A DNA stretch of 64,000 bases from Plumapathes pennacea (lineage: Eukaryota; Cnidaria; Anthozoa; Antipatharia; Myriopathidae): assembly GCA_964036295.1 (NCBI GenBank), contig OZ038472.1:15048885-15112884 (forward strand), given 5' to 3'. A program made the translations under genes and the position numbers. Positions within the stretch are counted from its first letter, which is position 1; every line of letters starts with the position of its first letter. The notes below the pieces were generated by a model. The model searched no databases. It was not told the origin of the DNA and saw only the letters and a list, made by a program, of their open reading frames with translations. Of this stretch, positions 12,201-58,083 are shown piece by piece.

Positions 12201-13128
12201 TCACAAAGTCATGATGTAATCTCAGCAGCTCTGGGAAGCCATTGTTTGCAGTTGGGACAACTTTGACCACATCAGCAAGAGATGGTACACTTTCCTGAAA
12301 ATGATAGTAATTTCTACAGTCAATAAATTTACAAGGGCAACACATACCTATTAAGTGAAATAATAGAGAATTATAATGTGTACTTCCTCCCAGTTTACAC
12401 TAATACTGGGAAGAATGATAGTCATGGTGAGGTACAGCACTCGACATTAACGGTTGCCAAAACTTTTGGTCGGGCAGGTAAATTCTGGGCCGGGCAACTA
12501 GAAATTATGAAACTTTCTATTGCTTGAAGTCAATCTACAGTCTGAAGGGCAACCAACCTAAAAACCTTAATGTCGAGCACTGAGGTACTAACTATATTTA
12601 AAATTCAAAATAATAGCAAGTTTGTGAGGCTTTGTGACACAGTTCGAGTTGTCTGTCTTTTATAGTTATACAATTAAGCGAGTTGCCTGAATACGTGCAT
12701 CCATGTACATGTATGAACAGGTTAGCATTGATTCTAGCGCCTAAAGACAAGTGGAACTCGCGTAGACAAAACAGCTTGACCTTCCCCACATGTGACAACA
12801 AAAGTGGATAAAATTACGGACACATGAGTATAACACTAGATAATACTACATAAACATGGACTTCACTTACCACAGAACAAGTAAAGAACGATCGAACGTG
12901 TACTGACCAGTGGCAAAACAAACCGGACAAGATTTGAACAATTCCTATTATGGCTAAAGCTATCAGACCAGCCTCGTAATAATCAGAAACACCGAACACA
13001 GCCACCCAAAAATAAAGCCATGCCAGATATATCGGTATAAAGGGCAGCAGGTAGAAATGTAGAATTAAAGGCCGTTTTCTGTACAGTTTTGTGTACTGAA
13101 TTTCTTCATTCAAAGCAATATCGGCCAT
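954..13128 (-). CDS. ATP13A1: ATP13A1, P5A-type ATPase (ER transmembrane-helix dislocase)
   Basis: P5A ATPases sit in the ER membrane and remove mis-inserted transmembrane helices. 29 exons encode about 1185 aa (human about 1204). Exons in order: 13128-12871, 12294-12205, 12074-11881, 11751-11580, 10809-10753, 10594-10525, 10131-10022, 9943-9814, 9531-9476, 9100-8974, 8887-8750, 8666-8546, 8047-7893, 7441-7266, 7027-6917, 6414-6289, 6109-5995, 5538-5429, 4882-4784, 4709-4613, 4121-4042, 3974-3825, 3743-3629, 3174-3039, 2793-2733, 2515-2376, 2173-2062, 1413-1270, 1061-954. Visible motifs: TGES in exon 7 (actuator), PPELP in exon 11 (TM4), the phosphorylation motif [10 protein letters not shown] in exon 12, ITGDNPLTA in exon 17, GDGTND in exon 20. 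The start has a good Kozak context (AAGATGGCC). The intron between 3825 and 3743 needs a GC donor (CAG/GCAAAG) to stay in frame. The donors after exons 15 and 19 are weak (GTGTGG, GTTCGC). All phases close. Confidence 0.95.
1131..1138. promoter_or_regulatory. CRE palindrome TGACGTCA
   Basis: Full palindromic cAMP-response-element-type octamer in the last ATP13A1 intron. It is the third copy within about 400 bp, with those at 734 and 766. Function is not shown. Confidence 0.35.
1676..1866. repeat. Tandem repeat, about 43-bp unit, about 4 copies
   Basis: Imperfect tandem copies built on CATGCGCGGCATGTAAAAAC followed by CGCGAYACACGTAGAARCG lie in an ATP13A1 intron (between exons 27 and 28). Reading frames through it (cysteine/arginine-rich) are repeat translations, not genes. 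Confidence 0.85.
3190..3223. repeat. (ACA)n microsatellite
   Basis: Simple ACA repeat in an ATP13A1 intron. Similar CAA/TTG runs occur near 3530-3620 and 4150-4175. Confidence 0.85.
3266..3452. repeat. Duplicated G-rich intronic segment
   Basis: Two copies of about 45 bp, beginning TTGATCGGGGGGAGGGG and ending GTGCCTTTTGACTAACTA, start near 3267 and 3407. The G-run pattern could form quadruplexes. It lies in the intron before the ATP13A1 exon at 3174-3039. Confidence 0.7.
4327..4471. mobile_element. Foldback (MITE-like) element
   Basis: Inverted repeat in an ATP13A1 intron. The arms begin CACCCTGGGTGCGCGCCA near 4330 and its reverse complement near 4452, and the palindrome continues inward through TTTCTTTATTAATC. 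No ORF. Probably a non-autonomous DNA element. Confidence 0.65.
4961..5165. repeat. Tandem duplication in ATP13A1 intron
   Basis: Two diverged copies of roughly 110 bp, each containing TATGTAACTCGGTCTAA, then TCGAAGTAAAA and CGGGAAAAT. They lie in the intron between exons 18 and 19. Confidence 0.65.
6561..6667. mobile_element. Foldback element with 40-bp arms
   Basis: Near-perfect palindrome: the arm at 6561-6600 contains AACAGACGTCTCTCATCGCG, and its reverse complement is at 6628-6667, with a loop of about 27 bp. It lies in the ATP13A1 intron between exons 15 and 16, beside the exon-15 partial duplication. MITE-like, no coding capacity. Confidence 0.75.
6734..6829 (-). pseudogene. Partial duplicate of ATP13A1 exon 15 and its donor region
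   Basis: About 95 bp copy of 6862-6968. It contains the last 40 or so bases of exon 15 (tyrosine-lysine-lysine-leucine-glycine region) plus the start of the following intron. The copy is decayed: the exon end has become an A-rich run and its frame is interrupted. It lies directly downstream in the intron, so it is a tandem duplicate rather than a usable exon. Confidence 0.7.
10194..10379. mobile_element. MITE with TATAACRAA-type inverted ends
   Basis: Starts CAGTGAAACCTTTATATAAC and ends with the inverted form GTTATATCGAGGTTCAC; internal copies read AACCTTGATATAACAAA and TTATAAGGAACA. This resembles pogo/Tigger-type (Tc1/mariner superfamily) miniature elements by its terminal motif. Intronic in ATP13A1. 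Confidence 0.55.
10870..11165. mobile_element. Composite foldback elements
   Basis: Two palindromic units lie side by side. One, at 10870-10970, pairs ATTTTATTTT..GTGGTAAAA with its reverse complement. The second has 27-28 bp inverted ends at 10976-11003 and 11139-11165 containing TAGACACGAGTGTTTTA. No ORF. Intronic in ATP13A1. Confidence 0.6.
11166..11320. repeat. Dispersed CTCTCTAAGG-GGACA palindromic repeat
   Basis: Ends carry CCCTCTCTAAGCGGACACC and its inverse GGTGTCCGCCTAAGAGAGA. A related shorter copy is at about 16185-16276. A MITE family is likely. Confidence 0.55.
12435..12582. mobile_element. MITE, terminal CAGYRCTCGACATTAA (copy 1)
   Basis: 148 bp with inverted ends CAGCACTCGACATTAA and TTAATGTCGAGCACTG, in ATP13A1 intron 1. 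The internal sequence GAAACTTTCTATTGCTTGAA matches the copy at 56495-56660, which lies in the opposite orientation. Confidence 0.75.
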
Positions 13129-13854
13129 CTTGGATTGAACAGCCTCATGCGCATGCCTATAGTGTAACTCCACTGCCCAGCTTAGCAGGTTCAGTGCCAT
13201 TACGTCACAAGTTGTTCGTCGAGGTTGCACGTACATGGATGAGGATGGAGTAAAAATACTATGTTGAAAAGCGCATCTGTGCAATGCATTGACCTTGTAG
13301 GAGCACATGGCACATTTTATCGTCAAATCGCGACAGACCTTATGCAAATGCGTCAAGTTCCACTCTGTGATCGTGTGTTCTTGTAGGCTCGCCCAGTCTA
13401 CAGCATGTTTGCCATCCAAGGTATATGCACTACATCACTTGCGATCAGGCTAAATGATCGTGCACTTTCGCGTTCAACATTTACTAGGAACAGAGTTTCA
13501 CATTTGGAATTTTCACTATTTGTTTGAAGGTGATAGACAGACTTTCATAACAATAATAACAATTCGTCAGTTGATCTTGTTGATTTGCCATTCAAAAAGT
13601 AATTAAATACGGGAAAATGTTTCTATTATAGGTACTATTGTGCCTATATGAAATAACTATATAAGGCTAGAGTAGTAATAATTTGCAGCAAAGACTGCCT
13701 TGTAGAGGGGCTTGGGAAGGAGGGGGTGTTATTTACCAAAGGAGTGAAACATGTAGACAGCAGATCTCACTTTAAAATATATGACCTGGGAACCATACTG
13801 GCCAGACCATCCCCAGCTACTAAAACTTCACAATTTTTACCACATGTGCCATAG
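13129..13854. other. Region between ATP13A1 and the DUF2358-like gene
   Basis: Holds the ATP13A1 start region and presumably the promoter and first exon(s) of the plus-strand C6orf136-like gene. No first coding exon could be fixed: candidate ATGs at 13235 and 13405 are followed by GT donors, but neither is supported beyond that. A coding-looking minus frame upstream of the ATP13A1 ATG is not needed by the model. Confidence 0.4.
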
Positions 13855-26290: not shown

Positions 26291-28235
26291 TCGACAAGCA
26301 CACGATTCGTTCAAGCACTCGAAGGCTCGTGTCAAGTCGCGTCCATAGCGTATTTATTGAGGTGTCAGAAAAAAAAAAGAAACAGGTGTTGAAATCGATT
26401 TGTAGACATTCATAAGAACGACGCTAGGAACAAAAGCGATGTAATGAGAAGGGCAACATAATAGAGACACTTATAGTGTTGAGCTTGTAAAATATATGCC
26501 GCAACATTCATTAGAAACCTCGAAATATGTTGAAAATACATACTTTGTACTATGCTGAATTTTGTCATAAATTAATTACTTAACTGAACTTTCTAAGCGC
26601 TTCCAGCAAAATAGTCTTATTACTGTTATGTTTGTAAAGTACATTGGCAAAATCTGTTCAACACAAGCGTGAAAATGAAAAACTTTCGAAATGAATCAAT
26701 GATTATCTCAGTCAATTTTCAGGTAATATTTATCTCAGTCAATTTTCTCTAACACGGAAAAGGCCGAACCCACGTGAGCATGCGCGAGGAGATAAAGAGA
26801 TTTGTTTCAGGACATCCAATTGAATGGTAATCAACCATTTACACGCCAACGGAAAGAAAAATAATGATCAATAAAACATCACGTTTCACTCCGAAGTAAG
26901 CTGGACGTTTCTCACACTCGATGCAAAATGTTAAAAAGATAGCTGACGAAAGCGAACCAGTGGAAAAAGATGCCGAGTTAGCACGTTTATTCAACTTTAC
27001 ACCAGCACATCATGAACACTTGCGCGCCTTCTGTTTAGCACAAATTTGAATTTTGTAAAATTGGGGTCGAAATTACTGTTGATCGATGGCCATTTGACCA
27101 AAATTACACACACACTGCACATCCAATATTCACACGTACCCCAGGAAATATAAAATAATTGAAAGCATTTAACTCATTACATTTCTGCTGCTTTTCATAT
27201 AGAAGTAAACAAACAAGTTACACTGTCCCAAACAAAGACTGTCAGTTCCTACAGAAGAAATTGCTTTTACAATTCGTACAAATTCGCTTCGACTTACTAT
27301 ATTATTAAAACAGTTTCCCTGAACACATAACATATTGATGCCGACAGTTAAAACAAATATTTCAAAGTTTACTTTTTTGTACCGACGATTTCGGAAACTG
27401 AGGGTAATTAAAGAGTGTTTTCCTGTGTTCATAGGGGAAAATCTTCAAAGGACGCGCAGTTAGAATGAGTTTTATCGTAGAGTTTGTCGAGTGTGCCATG
27501 CTGAAGCATATAGCACAGCGAAAATAAACAATTCTCGCGACTACAACACAAAAAACAAAAACAAAAAACGACGACTATATAACTTTCGAGGGTATATCAA
27601 ACAATAGTATAATGACTGCAGCCCAATAAAATCAAACCAATTTGTGTGAAAGTTGTGACTAACGCGGGTTTCGCAATGCTTTCATCTAAAAGAAAGGTGC
27701 AATACAGGAAGTACAATAATCTTGTTTCTCGGCTCCAGAAAAATGAAATCGCATTATTAGAAGCTGATATCGCTAATGATTCTTAATTAGAAATTTTAGC
27801 AATGGAAAATATAAATTTCCTTTTTAATTAAACTTTCCTGGGGCTAGCTCACATGCTTGCTTCCCACATTACGAACAATGAAGATAAGTTTCATCGTATG
27901 ACTCACCGCTGATTTCTCCGTGACGTTCTCCGTGTTACAAGTTCCACCAGCGGGAAGCGTTTTAATTTGTAATTCCTTTAATTGCCGTCATTATTGACAC
28001 AGGTAGAAACTTATTTCAGATATAATACTGTAATTTGACTGTACTGCGGCATTATGTACTGCTGAGCACGTCCTATACACAGCACGCTACTTATCTGCGC
28101 ACACAACAAGTCGTCAGCACCAGAGCTTCCCACGCAGATAAGATATCAGAACAACAATCTAGAGCGAACAGGAAACGTCGGAGAATAAGTAAGCGAGAGA
28201 CAAGTGAACGCCTTGACTGCTCTAGAGACGGCAGC
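26291..28235. other. Intergenic, about 1.9 kb
   Basis: Contains the WDR5 3' UTR (possible AATAAA at 26870-26875) and the 5' flank and leader of the GPCR gene. The GPCR frame is open upstream of its ATG back to about 28035, but without an ATG. No other gene or RNA is recognised; the sequence is AT-rich. Confidence 0.5.
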
Positions 28236-30836
28236 ATGAAAACAGCAAGTAGCACTTGGCTGAGAGCCGAAAGGATGCCAGTTTTTTTGCTGGTCTTGTG
28301 CTTTGTAATACCGGCATCAGTTGCGCTCATTCTTGGATCTCCTGCTTGCTGTGGCGACACCTCGTGTCGAAACCGATGTGATGACACTGGATGGGACGCA
28401 AAGGACGACACCAAGAGACACTGCCACTGCGACCCGTTCTGCAGCTTACACCAAGACTGTTGTCCTGATTACTACGAATATTGCGGCAAGCACAACAAAA
28501 CAGCCAATCAACTAAAAACGGAGCTGTTCCGCCGGCGGGCCGAGTGCGTCAAGACAAACGCGCAAATCAATCATCCAGGAACTCTCATGATCACGACCTG
28601 CGCGAGTGACTGGAAAGACACCAAAGAGTCGAGCGAACAAGAAAAATGCTTGGCATCAACGAATGCAAACAGTACATACACGTCCAGTAACATAACTGAG
28701 GATATCCCGGTGTTTCAGTTGGGTTTTGAGCATGCCACGTACAGAAATGCGCATTGCGCAGCGTGCAACAGAGTTCCTCCATTCATCATCTTTTTCTGGG
28801 ACTTGCAGATAGAATGTGAAATAAGACCCTCGGATCATCTGAGCGACCAGCAGAAGCTGGACTTCATGCTGCAGTACTGTAGTAAACGAAGCATGCAACC
28901 AGATAAGAACTTCAACGTCCGCTACTGCTTTCCGCAACTGAATCCCACATCCGAGTGTTCCACTGATGAAAACACCACGTTCCGCCAGTCCTGCCTACAA
29001 GACCCGATAGCTATAGTTCACGACAAAAACACTAACAGAAACTACAGAAACTATGGCTGTTTTCGCTGCAATGGGCTCTCTGAACAACCGGGGTGCGGCC
29101 CTGCGCCAAGTGCTCCCTTCTTCAATCCCAAGTCATTTGAAGTCGTGATGGATTTCAAAAATAAAAAGGCAACAACAGCCGAGACATGTGATAAAGGACA
29201 AGTGTACGATCCACGATTAGAGATTTGCCGGGAAGGAAAAATACCAAGTCTGTCCGCCGCGATGCGAGACAAGTACCAAGTTAACGCATGGCTGAGTCCG
29301 CACAGTGACGGGAAGCGGCTGACCGAGAAGCAGTTCCAAGGCGCACTCAGTGAGCACTTGTCACTGGACGCGCAACAAATCAGCGACATCACGCGAACAA
29401 ACGAGGGACGTTACACGGCTTTTCTGTTCAATCTTGATGCAGATCGAACACAGAAACAGCTTGACAACAGAAGCGCTGCAGAGATCAGTTCACTTATACG
29501 ATTCAACTCTTCATTCACGCTATCAGCTGCAAACAGGAGTTGGACCGTGTTCAAGGTGACCAGCAGACAGTTGGCATGTAGTAAAGGAGACTTGTACGGA
29601 CCAGACGAGATGAACATTAGTCTACCTGACCTGCAAGTATTCATCTACAACACATCCGAGAGTTTATCAAACGAAGAATACCACCTGATTAGAATAAACG
29701 ACTCAACGCCTCTCGAACAAGCATCAGTGTTCGTGTGTCGATCATCTTTCACGGCCAGTCTATGCTCTAAACTGCTCCTGTCCATCGAGAAAGAAGAATA
29801 CACAATACTACCGAACAAGTCTCTCCTGTACAACATTACTGGCGAGGCTATCCCACTTGGTACGTACGAACTGGACAAGACTAAAGCCTGGATATGCTCC
29901 GACCACCTGACAGATTCTCGCAACAACTCAACAACTACTGCCACCACGGTAAAGAGATCTGTGCTCTTGAGGTACACCACCATAGTTGGCATGTCCATCT
30001 CCGTCTTCTGTTTGTTTCTGGTTCTACTGACTCACTGCATTCTACCAGAGCTGAGGAATCCTCTACCGGGGAAAAACCTGATGAGTTTATGCGCGAGTCT
30101 GTTCCTGGCACACTTTCTCTGGCTCTTTGGTTCTGGTGATACAGACAAGAAGACGTTCTGTGCGGTGACAGCCATGGTACTCCACTACTTCTTCCTGGTG
30201 TCCTTCAGCTGCACTGTAATCCTCGCTTTTGACACATGGAGGACATTCTCAGCAAAAATGTCCGCAATGAAAGGGGCATCTTCCAGGGGCGGATGTGGGA
30301 CCCGCTTCTTGGTGTACACAGGACTGGCCTGGGGAATTCCGCTGATGTTGGTGGCAACAAGCGTTGTTCTCGACTACTTTGATGTGGTAGAGGTGGGCTA
30401 TGGCAATTCTAGTGTGTGTTGGATTACCAATACAGAGGCGCTTATCGTCAGCTTTGCCGCACCTGTAGCCTGCGCACTGATCTTCAACATCACCGCCTTC
30501 TCGCAGACCGTATGGGCCATCAACCGAGCTAAACAGCGCGCCGCCAAGTTGAATACCTCCCGCCAGAACTCCACAGCGCTCAAGATCTACGCTCGCCTGA
30601 TGACACTCATGGGCTTTGGCTGGCTGTTCGGCTTCAGCGCAGAGCTGATCCACAAGAGCCTCATGTATCCGTTTGTGATCCTCAACACTTCCCAAGGCGT
30701 GTATATCTTCTTGGCTTTCGTCTGCAAGGCGCGAGTGCTGAAGATGTTGAAGCAGAAGCTCCGACCGTCTACAAAGACAGACCGAAAGGCTGCACAGCAA
30801 ACAACCACTTCAGCTGCTTTTGAGACCACAATGTGA
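28236..30836 (+). CDS. Intronless family-B-like (adhesion/Methuselah-type) GPCR with somatomedin-B domain
   Basis: Single exon, about 866 aa. The ATG at 28236 gives a good signal peptide (MPVFLLVLCFVIPASVAL, residues 14-31). Residues 38-84 form a somatomedin-B-like cysteine knot (CCGDTSCRNRC, then CHCDPFCSLHQDCCPDYYEYC with the diagnostic adjacent cysteines). A long, cysteine-containing, N-glycosylation-rich ectodomain follows to about residue 570. A seven-helix domain then covers about 577-835, with hallmarks of class B/adhesion receptors: LRNPLPGKNLMSLCASLFLA at TM1-2, FCAVTAMVLHYFFLVSFSC at TM3, WGIPL at TM4, CWI in ECL2, LMGFGWLFGF at TM6, NTSQGVYIFLAF at TM7. I see no GPS autoproteolysis site. 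The ligand is unknown. The basic cytoplasmic tail is short. AATAAA is at 30899-30904. Such intronless receptors are common in cnidarian family expansions. Confidence 0.85.
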   Translation: MKTASSTWLRAERMPVFLLVLCFVIPASVALILGSPACCGDTSCRNRCDDTGWDAKDDTKRHCHCDPFCSLHQDCCPDYYEYCGKHNKTANQLKTELFRRRAECVKTNAQINHPGTLMITTCASDWKDTKESSEQEKCLASTNANSTYTSSNITEDIPVFQLGFEHATYRNAHCAACNRVPPFIIFFWDLQIECEIRPSDHLSDQQKLDFMLQYCSKRSMQPDKNFNVRYCFPQLNPTSECSTDENTTFRQSCLQDPIAIVHDKNTNRNYRNYGCFRCNGLSEQPGCGPAPSAPFFNPKSFEVVMDFKNKKATTAETCDKGQVYDPRLEICREGKIPSLSAAMRDKYQVNAWLSPHSDGKRLTEKQFQGALSEHLSLDAQQISDITRTNEGRYTAFLFNLDADRTQKQLDNRSAAEISSLIRFNSSFTLSAANRSWTVFKVTSRQLACSKGDLYGPDEMNISLPDLQVFIYNTSESLSNEEYHLIRINDSTPLEQASVFVCRSSFTASLCSKLLLSIEKEEYTILPNKSLLYNITGEAIPLGTYELDKTKAWICSDHLTDSRNNSTTTATTVKRSVLLRYTTIVGMSISVFCLFLVLLTHCILPELRNPLPGKNLMSLCASLFLAHFLWLFGSGDTDKKTFCAVTAMVLHYFFLVSFSCTVILAFDTWRTFSAKMSAMKGASSRGGCGTRFLVYTGLAWGIPLMLVATSVVLDYFDVVEVGYGNSSVCWITNTEALIVSFAAPVACALIFNITAFSQTVWAINRAKQRAAKLNTSRQNSTALKIYARLMTLMGFGWLFGFSAELIHKSLMYPFVILNTSQGVYIFLAFVCKARVLKMLKQKLRPSTKTDRKAAQQTTTSAAFETTM

Positions 30837-37880: not shown

Positions 37881-40308
37881 CTACACCTTCAGCTCTCTCA
37901 TTTTGGCCTTGTCCAGTTTGGCCTGTGCTGCTAGGGTCTTGTTACCCATGATTCCACCACCCCAGTGCTTCCTGATCTCATCAAAGCGTTCATTGTAGTT
38001 GGTCTTGACTGTCTCCACCAAGTTGTTCATGGTGTGTTTGTCTTCAGGTCGAACTCCCACTAGGCACAGGGCTGCAGCAGTCTTCTTGTAAACAACCTTG
38101 CCCAGTCTGAAAGGAAACACACATCCAGTTCAAACAAGTCACAAGAGAGGTTTGTATTCCCAGTGCAACGGATAGTGCTCCAGACTTGCTCCACATACTT
38201 GCACTAATACATTCTCAAAAACTGAACATGACTGGAAACATTGTTCTGAGTTAGCCTTTCCTTTTACAATGCAGTCTTGTTATCATCACAACAACTTTAT
38301 TTAACCCTTTTCCTCCCAAGAGTGATCAACTTCAATTTTCTCTTTTCAGTCTCCCACCAGAGATATATCATAAAGTATGGAGAATTTGGCATTCGTTTGC
38401 CACTTGCTCAAATGACATCTGATTAAAACATAAATTCTCTTTTCATCACTCATACATTTTCTTATTTTATGGTTGGGAGAATTTGTATTTTGAGCTTGGG
38501 ATTAAAAGGGTTAAGTGTCTATTTACACAAGGCAACATCAACCTGTTCAAAGCTATCCACTAACCTGGCCTTTCCTTTCACAATGCAGTATGGGACATTC
38601 ATTTTCCTGCACAGAGCTGGCAACCACACAACAAGCTGGAAAAAATGTCAGCAGTTAACTTTAAAAATCACAAATGAGAGCTTCCAGCATTGCCATGACA
38701 AAGAATGCATTGCCTTTCCTGCAGAAAAAGTACAGGTACCTAAAAAAATTTTCCCTGACAAAGATCAAAAGCCCCTGAAGCATCAACCCGGCAGTGAGAG
38801 AGCTGATAACAGATAAAAACATTTGTGTACCTCAATAGGATCCACATCATGGGCAATGACAACCAACTGGGCTTTCTTGTTTTCCACCAGACTGGTGATG
38901 TGGTTCAGACCATACTTCACGATTACTGGCTTCTTTCCTGGAGCATCTTCCTTGCCCTCTGCCTTCTTCTCAGCTTTGGCCGTCAGCCGGGCTTTCTTGT
39001 CAGCCTTTGTCTCTGGCCGATACTTGTGCATGAGCTTGAACAACTGAGTTGCTAAGGCAACACAAAACATGTTCAGTATCATAATGATCAAATATGCAAA
39101 AAAAAAAAAAAAAGAATTCCAAACTTATTTTCTACTTTTAAGCAATAACAATGCTCCTAGATTTACCACATGTCACTCTGAGTGACGGAGGAAAGCTTTT
39201 CCTGCTTTTACCTGTCTGTTTGTCCAAAGTCTGCGTAAACTGATTGATGGATGGAGGGACCTTGAGACGCTGGTACAACAAGGCTTTCTGACGCTGCAGC
39301 CTGATGTACTTGGGCCATTTAATGAAGCGGCTGAGGTCACGTTTGGGCTGAATATCACCACCTGAATTAAACACATCATTCCATGAATAACATACTAAAG
39401 ATACAGTGAATGAATTGTCCACAAAAGGAACAAAAGTAACAGACATCGGCTGCAATGCTCACTAACTTAGTCCATACACAGCCTGTTATACAGACCAAAT
39501 TTTTTGTTCACTACAAAAATTACATACCAATGCCAAAGTTTCTTGGCCGCTTTTCTATTAGTGGATTCACAGTTTTCTTGGGCTGTGGTTTGGCCGTGGT
39601 GTAAGGGGCTGGTGCCACCTTTTTCTTCACTTTCCTTACCTTAGGCTGGAAAAGGAGAGTTGAGGTTAGCGACCATGTGGACAAATATTGCAGCTAAACT
39701 ACAAAATACAGGGCCACCTGTCTTTCCAGCCAGCTCGTTAGCTTGTCAGTGTCACATTTCTTGTTCCACAAAACCTTTAACTTGGTCATGTATTATATTT
39801 ACATCAAATATGAATTCACTGACGAGCCCCAGAGCCATACCACTTCAAAATGGCCCTGTATTCTGCAGTTGCTCATTGCAGGGACAATAACACATCCAGT
39901 TGTCAAGCTGTAGTGAATCTTCCAGAATTTGTTCACGAGATTCAGTGATTCATAATAATTATTGTTGTGTGCACATGATACACTGTAAAAGCTACAAGAA
40001 AATTTCGAAATGTAGTTCTGACTGATGCAAAGCCAATAACTCTACAGACTTATCTCTTATTCCTGAAGCTATAAGCAGTTACACCGGTCATGTTTTGGAG
40101 AGATTACAGATTTTAGAAAGCTACGAGCAACACTATCAGACAACTGCTCGTCAGAGCGACAACGAGTCACTGGGCGCATTGAAAACTGGTCAAACAGAAA
40201 TTAGTCTTATAAAGTTTAATTTGGATGTCCATAAATAAAAATCTACAGCAGGATGTCGTGGATATACAAGGGTGAACAATTATATTTGATTTCGAGTGAA
40301 CCTACCAT
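37881..40308 (-). CDS. RPL7A: RPL7A (eL8), 60S ribosomal protein
   Basis: Six exons encode about 262 aa (human 266): 40308-40306, 39645-39528, 39361-39212, 39051-38831, 38635-38565, 38106-37881. Exon 1 codes only for the initiator methionine (ATG/GTAGGT), as often seen in ribosomal-protein genes. Diagnostic stretches: [93 protein letters not shown] pyrimidine tract CTTTCTCTTCTGCT (40321-40334, minus) fits a 5'TOP transcription start, implying translational control by mTOR. Intron 5 carries a piggyBac-like MITE. Unlike vertebrate RPL7A I see no U24 or U36 snoRNA in these introns. AATAAA is at 37848-37853. Confidence 0.97.
38305..38510. mobile_element. piggyBac-like MITE, copy B
   Basis: 206 bp flanked on both sides by TTAA, starting CCCTTTTCCTCCCAAG and ending TTGGGATTAAAAGGG. 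It is in reverse orientation relative to copies A and C and lies inside RPL7A intron 5. Confidence 0.75.
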
Positions 40309-40787: not shown

Positions 40788-41891
40788 ATGTCTCAATCAA
40801 GGCGAACTCTCCCTCAGAGCAAGGAAAACCTATTGAAGACATACACAAAGCGCTTGAAGGATGATGTAAAGTCAGTGTTGGACAACTTCACTGAAATCGT
40901 GAAGGCATCAAAGGTGCTGCCACAAGAATATACATGTTACCACAGATTTCTTATTGTGTGTCCTTCAGGAATAGGACAGAAGACACATCAACTCTCATGC
41001 ACTTTTTCTCCCACATGTGAGCCTTATCACCCACATTCTGTTTCCTGCATACAAGCCTTGTCCCACTTTCCTACATGGGCATTACAATCTTCAACATGCA
41101 AGCCTTCCCAGGCTCTTTGCCAATTATTACTGAATGGGGCTTAGTCTGGGTGGCATCACACTGCTGTGTTCAGATGCGACACAGGCTAAATTGATCTCAG
41201 GCTGATTTTGAAGTTGACATCTCCAAGATAGTTCATGACCCCTTTGGTTTTCTTTTTATATACAGTGCAGAAAGCATGTTATTCATACAAGCTGTCTTTT
41301 CATAAAAGCAATGAAAATTTTCAAGGATAGAAAATCAAGAACAATAATATTCTTTAAAATACTTATTCTTAATTTGTGCTTGCTCCATTATAGATTGAAA
41401 ATGAAACTCAAGTGTCTCGTCTCAGCCAGGCTGCACAGGACCAATATGAAATTCATGTGAGGGCAGCCAATATTGTAAGTTATAGAAAGTGTTGTTTTCT
41501 GAAATATTGTAAATATTCTTGTGGTAGCACCTTTCTAAAATATTGTAACAATCGTTAATCAGCAAAAGGGAAAGGGGCAGATTTGTAAGTGCAGTTAGTC
41601 ATGTAGAAGGAAGTGTGATACTCTGCAATTTCATTGTTCATTTTTTTTTTTTTTTTTTTTACTTTTTTGCAGGTGCGTGCAGGAGAATCGTTGATGAAGC
41701 TTGTGTCTGACATCAAAGAGTTCCTGGTCTTAAATGACTTCCCCTCTGTTAATAAGAGCATTGAAGATCAAACAGCAGATCTCAAGAGCTTTGAAAAACA
41801 AACAGATGCACAGCTTTTGGCCACAAAAGAGGACTTATCATCCAGTCTTTATGAACTGGAACAAAGTTACTATTCCTCTAAATACAGATAA
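40788..41891 (+). CDS. MED22: MED22 (Surf5), Mediator head-module subunit
   Basis: Three coding exons encode about 141 aa, matching the short human isoform (140 aa): 40788-40913, 41394-41474, 41673-41891. MED22 joins the head module of Mediator and links activators to RNA polymerase II. Recognisable: [84 protein letters not shown], and the acidic C-terminal helix [11 protein letters not shown]. The ATG at 40788 sits 5 nt after an acceptor, so a non-coding first exon is expected. AATAAA is at 41954-41959. Head-to-head with RPL7A, as in the vertebrate Surfeit locus. Confidence 0.95.
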
Positions 41892-42524: not shown

Positions 42525-42648
42525 TCCCTTTCCCCACTGTAACAATAAATGTCTGGAAAACTACACAATATTGTCAGCAGTCATACACTAGTGCAAGGAC
42601 TAAGAATAATTTATAAGACATACTGCAGATGAACACAAAATAACATTC

Positions 42649-42654
42649 TTTATT
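42649..42654 (-). other. Poly(A) signal of the snoRNA host gene
   Basis: AATAAA on the minus strand, about 65 bp into the terminal exon that begins at 42720. Confidence 0.6.
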
Positions 42655-42792
42655 TTGATAAATGCACACATTTGAAACAGTATTACTGACATCAAGTGGC
42701 TTCCAGGTACAACAGCAGATCTGAAAGAAAAGTCGACATATTAGAGCTTTTCTGATCCCTGTCCAAATTAATTTACTTTAACAGACTTTGGT

Positions 42793-42874
42793 GGTAACCT
42801 CAGTAGATCTGGTGAGAACATCTCATCATTCTTATTTCAAGAGTAGCAAATATATTTTCACATCACTGGTTACC
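42793..42874 (-). ncRNA. SNORD76: Box C/D snoRNA, SNORD76-like
   Basis: Box C GTGATGT (42866-42860), C' AATGATGA, D CTGA (42803-42800), closed by a perfect terminal stem GGTAACC / GGTTACC. The stretch TATTTGCTACTCTTGA is shared with human SNORD76, whose D' guide pairs with 28S rRNA around A2350 (GTAGCAAATAT). It lies in intron 8 of the host. Confidence 0.85.
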
Positions 42875-43115
42875 ATAATCAGACTATGTATCTATTTTAT
42901 TATACATTATGACCTTTGAAACAACACAAGCTCATCTTGTCCTCTAACAGAACTTGAACATGTACACTACAATCCTTTACTTACAAAAAGCATGTTTAGT
43001 GTCGATGTTGTTGATAGTTTAGACAAACCAAGCCACAGGACCCTGAAAAAGGTAAAAACAATCTCATCACAGGTCCCTGATCAGAATAAAATTAAACCTT
43101 GAGTGAATATAGAAT

Positions 43116-43202
43116 CAGTGCATCAGATTATACAGATCCCAGATGTTCAAATCACTATGCATGATTCATCTGTCCCTAACTGGAAAATCATCAGTTGCAC
43201 TG
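43116..43202 (-). ncRNA. Box C/D snoRNA, guide not firmly assigned
   Basis: Box C CTGATGA (43194-43188), D CTGA (43126-43123), perfect 7-bp terminal stem CAGTGCA / TGCACTG. The internal GTTAGGGACAG could pair with the 28S CTGTCCCTA segment that SNORD74 also addresses, but the D' box there is not canonical. The D guide (GATCTGTATAAT) has no target I recognise. Intron 7 of the host. Confidence 0.75.
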
Positions 43203-43443
43203 AGTGTAGAGCTAACAGAATGTGAACTCAAATTAACAACACGAACCAGGATGGCCAAAGATGCAAAGCATAAGCACAGGCAACACTACAAAAACTGTCA
43301 ACATTCTACCTTCACTGTACAGTGTGGATGATATTTACCTGAATAATTCCAAAATTATTGGTCTTTCATGCTGAAACAAGAGTGAAAAATGCAGTTAGAA
43401 CAAAAATATAACATTGATAAAATATAACAGTCATTCCATGTTT

Positions 43444-43520
43444 GAGTAGGATCAGATAGGGGCGAAGTTATCGACATTGTTTGATAGTTCAGGTGAACTA
43501 TAAGATCATCACAGCTACTC
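43444..43520 (-). ncRNA. SNORD80: Box C/D snoRNA, SNORD80-like
   Basis: Box C GTGATGA (43512-43506), D CTGA (43455-43452), perfect terminal stem GAGTAG / CTACTC. The D guide TTCGCCCCTAT pairs with 28S ATAGGGGCGAA; the fifth base from box D points at the human G1612 equivalent, as for SNORD80. The D' guide ATAGTTCACC with CTGA pairs with GGTGAACTAT and points at the A1521 equivalent (SNORD77 target). Intron 6 of the host. Confidence 0.9.
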
Positions 43521-43686
43521 AAGAAAACATAAAAAATAAAAAAGCCCTGTCTACACTATTACCTTTTATACAGTGGACATTATTATGCTTATCTGTCTTC
43601 TGTTAACAAGCCCTGTAATAACAAAAACAAAAAGTTTGCAGGGTTAGTTAAATTTGACACATGGATTTGAGTATCTGGATGGATCA

Positions 43687-43756
43687 TGGTATCAGATAGA
43701 GCTAATAAGATGTCTTCACAAAAACATCAGGTGAACTATGCAGTCATCACGCACCA
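43687..43756 (-). ncRNA. Box C/D snoRNA, SNORD77/SNORD44-like double guide
   Basis: Box C GTGATGA (43750-43744), D CTGA (43695-43692), short stem TGGT / ACCA. The D' guide GCATAGTTCACC pairs for 12 nt with 28S GGTGAACTATGC (A1521 region). The D guide ATTAGCTCTA pairs with 18S TAGAGCTAAT, and the plus-five rule selects the A166 equivalent, the human SNORD44 target. It shares its D' half with the SNORD80-like neighbour. Intron 5 of the host. Confidence 0.88.
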
Positions 43757-43902
43757 CTGAAAATAGGAACAGCATAGTAAAACTGCGTCATATATACCTG
43801 GGTCACTGCAGTCTCGCAGGAGGACAAGCCCTGCAACATAAAATGAAAACACTTTAGCTCTCTTCTCTCTGAACTTTTGTATGAAATGATATAATTTTGT
43901 AA

Positions 43903-43988
43903 TTTTACACCTCAGCGATCTTGGTGGTTAGTTGTCATCATATCCAGAAGATACGATAGCAAATATTGGGTTCATCATAGATGTAAAA
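43903..43988 (-). ncRNA. SNORD24: U24 box C/D snoRNA
   Basis: Box C ATGATGA (43978-43972), C' ATGATGA, D CTGA (43915-43912), 9-bp terminal stem TTTTACATC / GGTGTAAAA with one wobble. It contains the U24 signature ATTTGCTATC and the guide ACCACCAAGATCG directly before CTGA, the same as human SNORD24, pairing with 28S CGATCTTGGTGGT. Human U24 resides in an RPL7A intron; here it is in intron 4 of the separate host gene. Confidence 0.93.
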
Positions 43989-44546
43989 CAAATATTAAGC
44001 ATTTATTAACAGCAAGCAAAGCAGTGGCCTATAAAGTCGCAAGCAACCATGCGCAAGAACTGCAGGGCCCAGACCCCCCGCAGTATCACTGAGGAGACCG
44101 CTGACCAGCAATTGTCTCGAGTCTAACTTGCCTAAATTTCATTTAGCCTCATTTAAAATTCTCCAAGGAAGGATTGATAATGTTTTGCAGTGGGATACAA
44201 TATTGGCCATGTATTTATAAGTTGGTCATTGGCTTTGCCCGATGATCATTGTGCATTGTTTTATGTGCTAATTGTACGACTGTGCATTTATGTTGGATCC
44301 ACACAGCAGCATTCCCAGTAGCTTTACCAATAATTACCTTGCAGTCAGCAGACAAAAGAATTATTCTTGTTTTCAGCAGTTGCCATTACTTTGTGTCTTC
44401 CTTTGTCAAATGTATCATCCTCTGAAACATGGGAGCAGAGTTGTGGATGAGTTAGTTAGCATCGCCTTTTAGTTTCAGCTAACTAATAAATCTACAGTTC
44501 CCCAGAGAGCCCCATTCCTTAACCACCCCCTCCTCACCCCCCAGAT

Positions 44547-44622
44547 CTGCTATGCATCAGTCCTATCGATCATAAAGCATCATGGGTTTTCTGCATCTAA
44601 ATTTACATCATTTGCATAGCAG
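44547..44622 (-). ncRNA. Box C/D snoRNA, orphan guide
   Basis: A perfect 10-bp terminal stem CTGCTATGCA / TGCATAGCAG encloses box C ATGATGT (44611-44605), C' ATGATG and D CTGA (44560-44557). The guide before D (ATGATCGATAGGA) has no rRNA target that I recall. Intron 3 of the host. Confidence 0.8.
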
Positions 44623-44810
44623 TCAATGCAACTCTTCCTGACCGGCTTCTACTAGGTTTAAAGTACAAATCCAGGGGCTTACCGTGATGTGAGCAGTATC
44701 TGCTCCATTGAACTCACCCTGCAAAAATATACAAAACATTAAGTCAGACTATAGAATGTGAAAAAGTCAAGTCTTCAGCTAACCACTACACAATAAATAC
44801 CAAACTGAAC

Positions 44811-44891
44811 CTTGCAGTTTCAGAATGGAACGATCTTCATTGGTTCTCTCAGAGAGATTCCCATTCCAAAGCATTCATCATAAAGTGCAAG
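44811..44891 (-). ncRNA. SNORD79: Box C/D snoRNA, SNORD79-like
   Basis: Box C ATGATGA (44881-44875), D CTGA (44823-44820), perfect stem CTTGCA / TGCAAG. The D' guide GGGAATCTCT followed by CTGA pairs with 28S AGAGATTCCC, the target of human SNORD79 (A3809 region). The D guide (GATCGTTCCATT) is not assigned. Intron 2 of the host. Confidence 0.85.
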
Positions 44892-45415
44892 GATGTGCCG
44901 GCGAGCACATGGTCATGCATCGAGTCAAATCCAGCACAACTTTACCGAAATACACTATAAAATGATATCAGTTGAACAATCTCAGGCTTACCTAATCCAT
45001 CCAACCTTCAACTGCCCTGAAACTACAACCTGCGGAGAAATAGTACAGCGCCATTTCAGCACCTCCACAAGGACGCTCTACACCAACCACGAGGATAGTT
45101 GGAAAGGAGTGGATACTAAGCCGTTCTCAGTCTTTCCGACTGATTTCCGGATGCTTACGAAGACAGCAGTCGGAGGCGAATACTTCTATTTTCACATATT
45201 TGTATTCCTTTCGTCGGTATGAAAAAACATTAGGCCACGAAAATGCATGACGAAATAAGAACATTAATTGCAAATTCCCGGTTCATTTGACCAAAAAATT
45301 CCGGAAGTGAAATATCTTTGAACGATTGCACGAATTTTTATGTGCTGGTGAGTTCTCGGAGTGACACGACACCGAAGAAGCTTCGGGGCACGATGACGAA
45401 ATCTAAACTCGTGGC

Positions 45416-45434
45416 CCAATCAGCGTTAGACACG
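45416..45434 (+). promoter_or_regulatory. ERSE-like site, one mismatch
   Basis: CCAAT at 45416-45420, nine spacer bases, then ACACG at 45430-45434. This differs from the ER-stress element CCAAT-N9-CCACG at one base. Confidence 0.55.
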
Positions 45435-45447
45435 GGAAAATTCTAAA

Positions 45448-45466
45448 CCAATCATCGAGGGCCACG
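45448..45466 (+). promoter_or_regulatory. ER stress response element (ERSE)
   Basis: Exact CCAAT-N9-CCACG: CCAAT 45448-45452, spacer CATCGAGGG, CCACG 45462-45466, about 115 bp before the HSPA5 ATG. In vertebrates NF-Y binds CCAAT and ATF6/XBP1 binds CCACG to induce BiP in the unfolded protein response. Confidence 0.88.

Positions 45467-45581: not shown

Positions 45582-48679
<3,098 letters not shown>

Positions 48680-49350: not shown

Positions 49351-58083
<8,733 letters not shown>

Follow-up and report, generated by a model that had tools for sequence, protein, structure and literature searches.

A putative GAS5-like non-coding host gene with seven intronic box C/D snoRNAs in the antipatharian Plumapathes pennacea

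Analysis of a 64,000-nt stretch of the Plumapathes pennacea genome (hereafter the window; positions 15048885 to 15112884 of the contig denoted C11, in a 290 Mb genome of 24 contigs) revealed a minus-strand locus that we consider, with high confidence, to be a working non-coding host gene for small nucleolar RNAs (snoRNAs), with one box C/D snoRNA in each of seven introns. Because it differs from vertebrate GAS5 in the order and the set of its snoRNAs, and its position could be compared within the window only, we call the locus GAS5-like rather than a GAS5 ortholog. Shared ancestry of its resident set with that of vertebrate GAS5 appears fairly probable.

GAS5 has been investigated as a regulatory long non-coding RNA. 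According to the study of the chicken gene, the snoRNAs of GAS5 are conserved between chicken and human and the rest of the gene has diverged. If a non-bilaterian animal has a gene with equivalent guides, this would mark the snoRNA cluster as the old part of the gene and date it before the cnidarian-bilaterian split. Literature searches, with subscription papers outside their reach, returned nothing on GAS5 in Nematostella or cnidarians and, for snoRNA host genes with Nematostella, only the FAU gene of a sponge; among 15 listed of 107 papers, no title or displayed beginning of an abstract mentions a GAS5-like gene in a cnidarian. A 2024 paper on Hydractinia presents its own survey as an attempt at the first detailed description of non-coding RNAs of any cnidarian.

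Organization of the host gene

The GT-AG introns of the gene model were set by eye, and lengths and distances were then measured. The model comprises the following features:

42630..45109, minus strand: snoRNA host gene, predicted non-coding, eight exons and seven introns, both ends inferred
45109, minus strand: start resembling a terminal oligopyrimidine (TOP) tract, CTCCTTTCC, the inferred transcription start
44992..45109, minus strand: exon 1, 118 nt if the TOP-like tract is the transcription start
44991-44719, minus strand: intron 1, GT-AG, carries S1
44682-44422, minus strand: intron 2, GT-AG, carries S2
44337-43831, minus strand: intron 3, GT-AG, carries S3
43797-43613, minus strand: intron 4, GT-AG, carries S4
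43562-43371, minus strand: intron 5, GT-AG, carries S5
43338-43043, minus strand: intron 6, GT-AG, carries S6
42984-42721, minus strand: intron 7, GT-AG, carries S7
42654, minus strand: AATAAA
near 45160-45200, minus strand: possible additional 5' exon
44007..44157, minus strand: dispersed repeat within intron 3, 60 or more relatives

The eye-placed model thus combines one C/D snoRNA per intron with short exons (the internal ones measure 36, 84, 33, 50, 32 and 58 nt) and no notable open reading frame (ORF): in the spliced model of 502 nt, all three frames are broken and the longest ORF spans 33 amino acids. The first ATG of exon 1 opens an ORF of 20 amino acids whose stop is the last codon of the exon, and nonsense-mediated decay of the RNA would be expected to follow from this early stop. 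Many snoRNA hosts encode ribosome-related proteins, so that one could think of a protein-coding gene with misjudged exons and snoRNAs in ordinary coding introns, but the three broken frames and the 33-residue ORF make this very improbable. The initial annotation had already placed one box C/D snoRNA in each of seven minus-strand introns and described the exons as lacking a frame, and both statements hold; it had also counted nine exons with snoRNAs in introns 2 to 8, of which the seven snoRNA introns stand, whereas our model has eight exons, an extra 5' exon being possible.

The distance from the end of the D box to the 3' splice site is, from intron 1 to intron 7, 101, 135, 81, 79, 81, 80 and 79 nt. 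Intronic C/D small nucleolar ribonucleoproteins (snoRNPs) assemble in a splicing-coupled manner, a fixed number of nucleotides from the 3' splice site, and the spacing of 79-81 nt in five of the seven introns is what such coupled assembly predicts. Spacing of this kind is discussed in a paper on Neurospora snoRNAs.

A DNA search with the gene recovered the gene itself and at least 60 matches, every one of them confined to the dispersed repeat of intron 3, so that the 39 scored of 111 candidates included no second copy of the gene. The repeat has no Rfam or tRNA match; a stretch of approximately 87 nt at its beginning is found again in a tandem array with a period of 262 bp on contig C12 (L050).

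The seven snoRNAs and their predicted targets

The snoRNAs are listed below, with the nucleotide addressed by the guide in square brackets:

44811..44891, minus strand: S1, SNORD79-type, intron 1; D' guide to 28S ACGAG[A]TTCCCA
44546..44623, minus strand: S2, C/D snoRNA, intron 2; D guide to 28S GGCCT[A]TCGATCC
43905..43986, minus strand: S3, SNORD24, intron 3; D guide to 28S GAT[C]TTGGTGGT
43680..43763, minus strand: S4, two-guide RNA, intron 4; D' guide of SNORD77/80 type, D guide of SNORD44 type
43443..43521, minus strand: S5, SNORD80 type, intron 5; D' guide to 28S GTGA[A]CTAT (9-10 nt), D guide to ATAG[G]GGCGAA
43114..43204, minus strand: S6, SNORD74-type, intron 6; guide TAGGGACAG ahead of ATGA as D'
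42792..42875, minus strand: S7, SNORD24-family RNA, intron 7; guide ahead of TTGA as D'

A C box, a D box and a terminal stem are present in all seven RNAs, and this architecture far exceeds chance. The stem of S1 is shorter and offset, the C box of S6 reads CTGATGA, and the D' box is degenerate in S3, S6 and S7. Each RNA carries, upstream of D or D', at least one guide of 9 nt or more complementary to rRNA. Besides its D guide, S3 has a second one ahead of the degenerate D' that pairs with 28S TAG[C]AAATATT. The D' guide of S4 pairs with 28S GTGA[A]CTATGC and its D guide with 18S CTAG[A]GCTAATA, so that S4, judged by its guides, is a composite in which a SNORD77/80 guide is joined to a SNORD44 guide. 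The D' guide of S6 forms 9 pairs with 28S CTGT[C]CCTA, and that of S7 addresses the SNORD76 site, 28S GGTAGT[A]GCAAATAT.

Pairing was assessed on rRNA fragments of the species itself. In the 13 genomic regions examined, rDNA occurs as partial or chimeric copies, with no intact unit among them; the relevant target stretches are present in these copies. No 9-nt complement to the D guides of S1, S6 and S7 exists in the fragments examined; the central part of 18S is thinly covered by the rDNA copies, and orphan guides may therefore have targets there. The partial and chimeric copies are spread over contigs C5, C7, C8 and C10 (L017-L025, L029-L032). An 18S fragment of the genome has an anthozoan appearance; a search for GFP-like proteins as a further sign of the phylum gave no match and was uninformative.

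Eight of the 10 guide boxes pair through their positions 3-10 and set the fifth base against a single rRNA nucleotide; in the D' guides of S5 and S6, pairing covers positions 1-9 instead. Canonical CTGA boxes of the snoRNAs are preceded by a 9-nt rRNA complement in 7 of 10 cases, compared with 38 of the 638 control CTGA tetramers in the window. In human numbering, the predicted 28S sites would correspond to A1521, G1612, C2338, A2350, C2352, A3809 (the S1 target) and C3820; the S2 target is presumably equivalent to yeast A2640, the snR68 site.

The target assignments are supported independently of this numbering by the spacing of the sites. The site shared by the D' guides of S4 and S5 lies 91 nt from the S5 D site (in all three rRNA copies with both); the S3 D, S7 D' and S3 D' sites are at 0, 12 and 14 nt along the molecule (in all seven copies with all three); and 11 nt separate the S1 and S6 sites (in the two copies that have both). 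These spacings agree with the table of chicken sites, where U77/80 addresses A1469 and G1560, U24 C2112, U76 A2124, U24 C2126, U79 A3319 and U74 C3330. The 18S target is at base 162 of our fragment, compared with 165 in chicken.

Family assignment

Genome-wide searches with snoRNA families, in which only the best candidates were scored, singled out the locus for two families. The only matches above the cut-off of SNORD24 (RF00069) are S3, with both guides (C2338 and C2352) present, at 49.2 bits and S7 at 51.5 bits; the next match reaches 30.6 bits and scores better as SNORD33. For SNORD77/80, the best matches are likewise two RNAs of the locus, at 36.7 and 32.6 bits, neither of which reaches the cut-off of 41; the next is at 25.6 bits. 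Among the scored candidates, the genome contains no other credible match of either family. S1 is the top SNORD79 match at 46.0 bits, below the cut-off, followed by five copies on C2 at 38-39.5 bits and weaker matches on C3 and C5; the two of the five C2 copies that were tested both score better as SNORD27. S6 was typed by its guide together with a sub-threshold Rfam match to R44/J54, and S2 has no good Rfam family. A separate SNORD44 elsewhere in the genome was considered and rejected, the best match reaching 27.1 bits (cut-off 40); none is listed in the locus, so that S4 is no SNORD44 by Rfam and only its D guide is of that type.

In the tables of the Neurospora and chicken papers, snoR44 stands beside U74, and in the chicken paper also beside U79; the Neurospora paper further records a comparable split between U24 and U24b/U76, and one of its table rows combines snR64, snoR44 and U74.

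The C2 matches belong to a candidate second snoRNA cluster (C2:16945500-16955400, L042; also L043 and L044) that resembles UHG/SNHG1. It contains a SNORD27 match of 50.6 bits (cut-off 52), snR56/SNORD25-type matches of 37.0 and 33.3 bits (cut-off 54) and more C/D candidates; similar copies occur at five places between 16.95 and 18.51 Mb, with blocks approximately 82-98% identical among the three compared. On C5 (C5:24354700-24364600, L045), C/D candidates of two kinds alternate: a pair matching the SNORD33/32 family, at 32.7 and 32.2 bits against a cut-off of 44, and a second pair with a 9-nt 18S guide; the host may be of RPL13A type.

Relationship to vertebrate GAS5

The locus resembles vertebrate GAS5 in its short non-coding exons with one C/D snoRNA per intron, in its putative TOP-like start and in its U74, U76, U77/80, U79 and U44 guides. 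The match to GAS5 guides of the SNORD76, 80/77, 44 and 79 types, proposed in the initial annotation, is thus borne out for every one of them, with a SNORD74-type guide in addition. Five of the seven residents (S1, S4, S5, S6 and S7) belong to GAS5 families. The chicken gas5-like gene (CR387333) has ten target sites (U44, U81, two of U77/80, U76, U79, U74, U47, U75 and U78), of which six are shared with the coral locus, that is, six of its nine; furthermore, both genes carry two U77/80 RNAs in neighbouring introns, 4 and 5 in each. A naive hypergeometric test of site sharing gives 3.3e-5 with 86 sites (a number from the chicken abstract that includes snRNA sites), and collapsing paralogous guides into lineages gives 2.7e-4 (with assumed counts of 5, 8 and 75, N 90 and K 11); both values are indications only, since guides duplicate within genes and are not independent draws.

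Non-coding exons with intronic C/D snoRNAs are also found in UHG-type hosts and in the UHG-like clusters of Neurospora, whose residents differ from those of the locus. The Neurospora authors describe their clusters as resembling gas5 yet differing in snoRNA composition, and they give the equivalents of U44 and U76 on chromosome VII, those of U74 and U24 on chromosome I and that of U80 on chromosome V, so that the five are not in one place.

Several observations weigh against a close correspondence with GAS5. The locus has seven snoRNAs, not ten, and lacks both the full vertebrate resident set and its order: it reads 79, S2, 24, 77/80+44, 80, 74, 76, compared with SNORD74, 75, 76, 77, 44, 78, 79, 80, 47, 81 as listed for human GAS5. 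Its U44 guide sits in a U77/80-type RNA, and it carries in addition U24 and the S2 guide, whose site is outside the vertebrate GAS5 set. SNORD75, 78 and 47, sought in the locus and not genome-wide, gave no match there, and SNORD81, sought likewise, gave only an opposite-strand match of 18.5 bits (cut-off 50). The locus is flanked by RPL7A, MED22 and BiP; none of the human GAS5 neighbours DARS2, ZBTB37 and CENPL is among the genes recognised in the window (20 of its 44 listed ORFs, including two BiP pieces, were scanned against Pfam), and TIGR00459, the one DARS2-type model searched, matched weak fragments on C7 and C2 and none on C11. As to the individual RNAs, S1 falls 1 bit under its Rfam cut-off, S4, S5 and S6 fall clearly under theirs, and S1 and S6 are not alike in sequence (z 1.5). 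The longest unanchored rRNA duplex was equalled in 32 (S1), 24 (S2), 11 (S5) and 54 (S6) of 60 shuffles, and less often for S3, S4 and S7 (2, 3 and 1 of 60); for the former four, duplex length was rejected as evidence, and because shuffles match it so often, only box-anchored pairing discriminates. Covariance-model scoring, suggested at the outset as a check, upheld S3 and S7 and left the other five below threshold or, in the case of S2, without a family.

Some of these differences would fit a functional host gene assembled independently in this lineage from mobile snoRNAs and intragenic duplication, with a convergent likeness to GAS5. Besides the different order, SNORD24 resides in RPL5 in sponges and in RPL7A in human, and the chicken paper describes gas5-like genes as a hotspot for the gain of snoRNAs; the pairs S3/S7 and S4/S5 reach z 4.4 in alignments relative to shuffles, as intragenic duplicates would, with S2/S4 reaching 4.9, so that z alone is unspecific. 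However, six of nine sites are common to one vertebrate gene, and the two families singled out above have no other credible match among the scored candidates, so that we regard independent assembly as rather unlikely. Common descent is no more than likely, given the order mismatch, the four GAS5 residents unseen and the changing hosts of SNORD24. The original description as a GAS5-type host gene is accordingly sustained by guide content and exon-intron layout and weakened by SNORD24, S2, the order, the four residents and the neighbours; similarly, that a GAS5-type cluster is older than the cnidarian-bilaterian split appears the likelier reading on the strength of the shared sites, tempered by the order, the mobility of SNORD24 and the single genome.

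The explanation that we favour as a whole, and hold to be reasonably probable, joins host gene function with common descent. The host transcript would be spliced and each of the seven introns would free one box C/D snoRNA, with the snoRNP assembling at a fixed spacing from the 3' splice site and the intron being debranched and trimmed to the terminal stem. The RNAs would guide 2'-O-methylation of the seven 28S sites given above in human numbering, of 18S A166 and of one site in GGCCTATCGATCC, and the spliced exons would be a by-product, probably cleared by nonsense-mediated decay. The resident set and the vertebrate GAS5 set would descend from a common ancestral cluster that was reshuffled later. 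The sequence itself shows the boxes, stems and guides, the splice-site spacing, the absence of a long ORF and, for two families, of further credible matches among the scored candidates; from it we infer transcription, splicing, processing, decay, methylation and common descent.

Neighbouring genes and a possible link to RPL7A

The genes and elements flanking the host gene are as follows:

37890..39615, minus strand: RPL7A (SURF3), tblastn exon matches, best E 3e-31, divergent from MED22
40788..41879, plus strand: MED22 (SURF5), tblastn, exons 40788-40916, 41394-41477 and 41673-41879, converging on the host gene
45410..45466, plus strand: endoplasmic reticulum stress response element (ERSE) at 45448, CCAAT-N9-CCACG, and at 45410 an ERSE-II-like element, both between BiP and the host gene
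45582..48679, plus strand: BiP/GRP78, HSP70 family, oriented head to head with the snoRNA host, product ending in DDKDEL

The tblastn queries for MED22 and RPL7A were human proteins. The Pfam Med22 match scores 20.9 bits (cut-off 26), and the first exon is also matched by a PDB sequence. The divergent MED22-RPL7A pair corresponds to Surf5-Surf3 of the mouse surfeit locus, as described in the literature. The host gene lies approximately 3 kb from RPL7A, with MED22 in between, and distances of 3.2 and 4.3 kb separate its SNORD24-family RNAs from the first RPL7A match. In chicken and human, SNORD24 resides in RPL7A, whereas in the coral SNORD24 with both guides sits in the neighbouring non-coding gene; a relaxed scan found no C/D candidate in the RPL7A introns (two matches overlap exons; sub-cut-off Rfam matches and H/ACA snoRNAs were not searched). 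We noticed this adjacency after the fact and read it as an old linkage followed by a short hop, in either direction, which would be a concrete, testable step in how a snoRNA switches its host.

The same arrangement suggests another origin, namely that the locus is a SNORD24 host moved out of RPL7A, a surfeit-associated transcript that gained snoRNAs and is kin of RPL7A rather than GAS5. RPL7A and MED22 being the next genes, RPL7A introns lacking a C/D candidate and both SNORD24 matches above the cut-off lying in the host gene favour this idea. Nevertheless, SNORD24 is the only one of the locus RNAs that resides in chicken RPL7A, where the others listed are of U36 type; the sole SNORD36 match in the locus (24.3 bits, cut-off 30) is S2, the D guide of which fits another site; and most other guides are those of GAS5. 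On balance, we find this origin improbable.

A scenario that joins both lines of evidence, tentative and somewhat doubtful, would place the ancestral GAS5 in its original surfeit position beside RPL7A/MED22, with a promoter region shared with BiP. Its residents would have been SNORD24 with SNORD76 derived from it, SNORD80 with SNORD77 derived from it, and the SNORD74 and SNORD79 guides; in vertebrates, SNORD24 would have hopped a few kb into RPL7A and the rest would have departed as GAS5. HSPA5 and RPL7A/MED22 (human 9q33-34), GAS5 (1q25) and ATP13A1 (19p13), the last with a P5A-ATPase exon as its counterpart in the window, belong to one ancient set of duplicated regions, the major histocompatibility complex paralogon, so that GAS5 could be the copy kept on another duplicate. 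The BiP start codon is 472 bp from the TOP-like tract. The ERSE and ERSE-II-like elements are the only ones found in the window, with 0.07 of each expected by composition; they fit BiP, and any influence on the snoRNA host is conjectural. If true, the shared region would couple snoRNA supply to endoplasmic reticulum stress.

Other observations

Elsewhere in the window, we noted a P5A-ATPase exon at 12814-13434 and, at 28026-30836, a probable adhesion-type receptor, namely a 936-residue ORF in which Somatomedin B is combined with a 7tm_2 domain of the secretin family. A match to the histone 3' stem-loop at 50627-50670 (34.5 bits, cut-off 34) is probably due to chance, and the 700 bases upstream on the same strand contain no recognisable histone ORF. 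Finally, an IMG/VR contig (L010) in which RNA-phage-like genes are joined to a 28S stretch is, judged by eye, probably a chimeric assembly.

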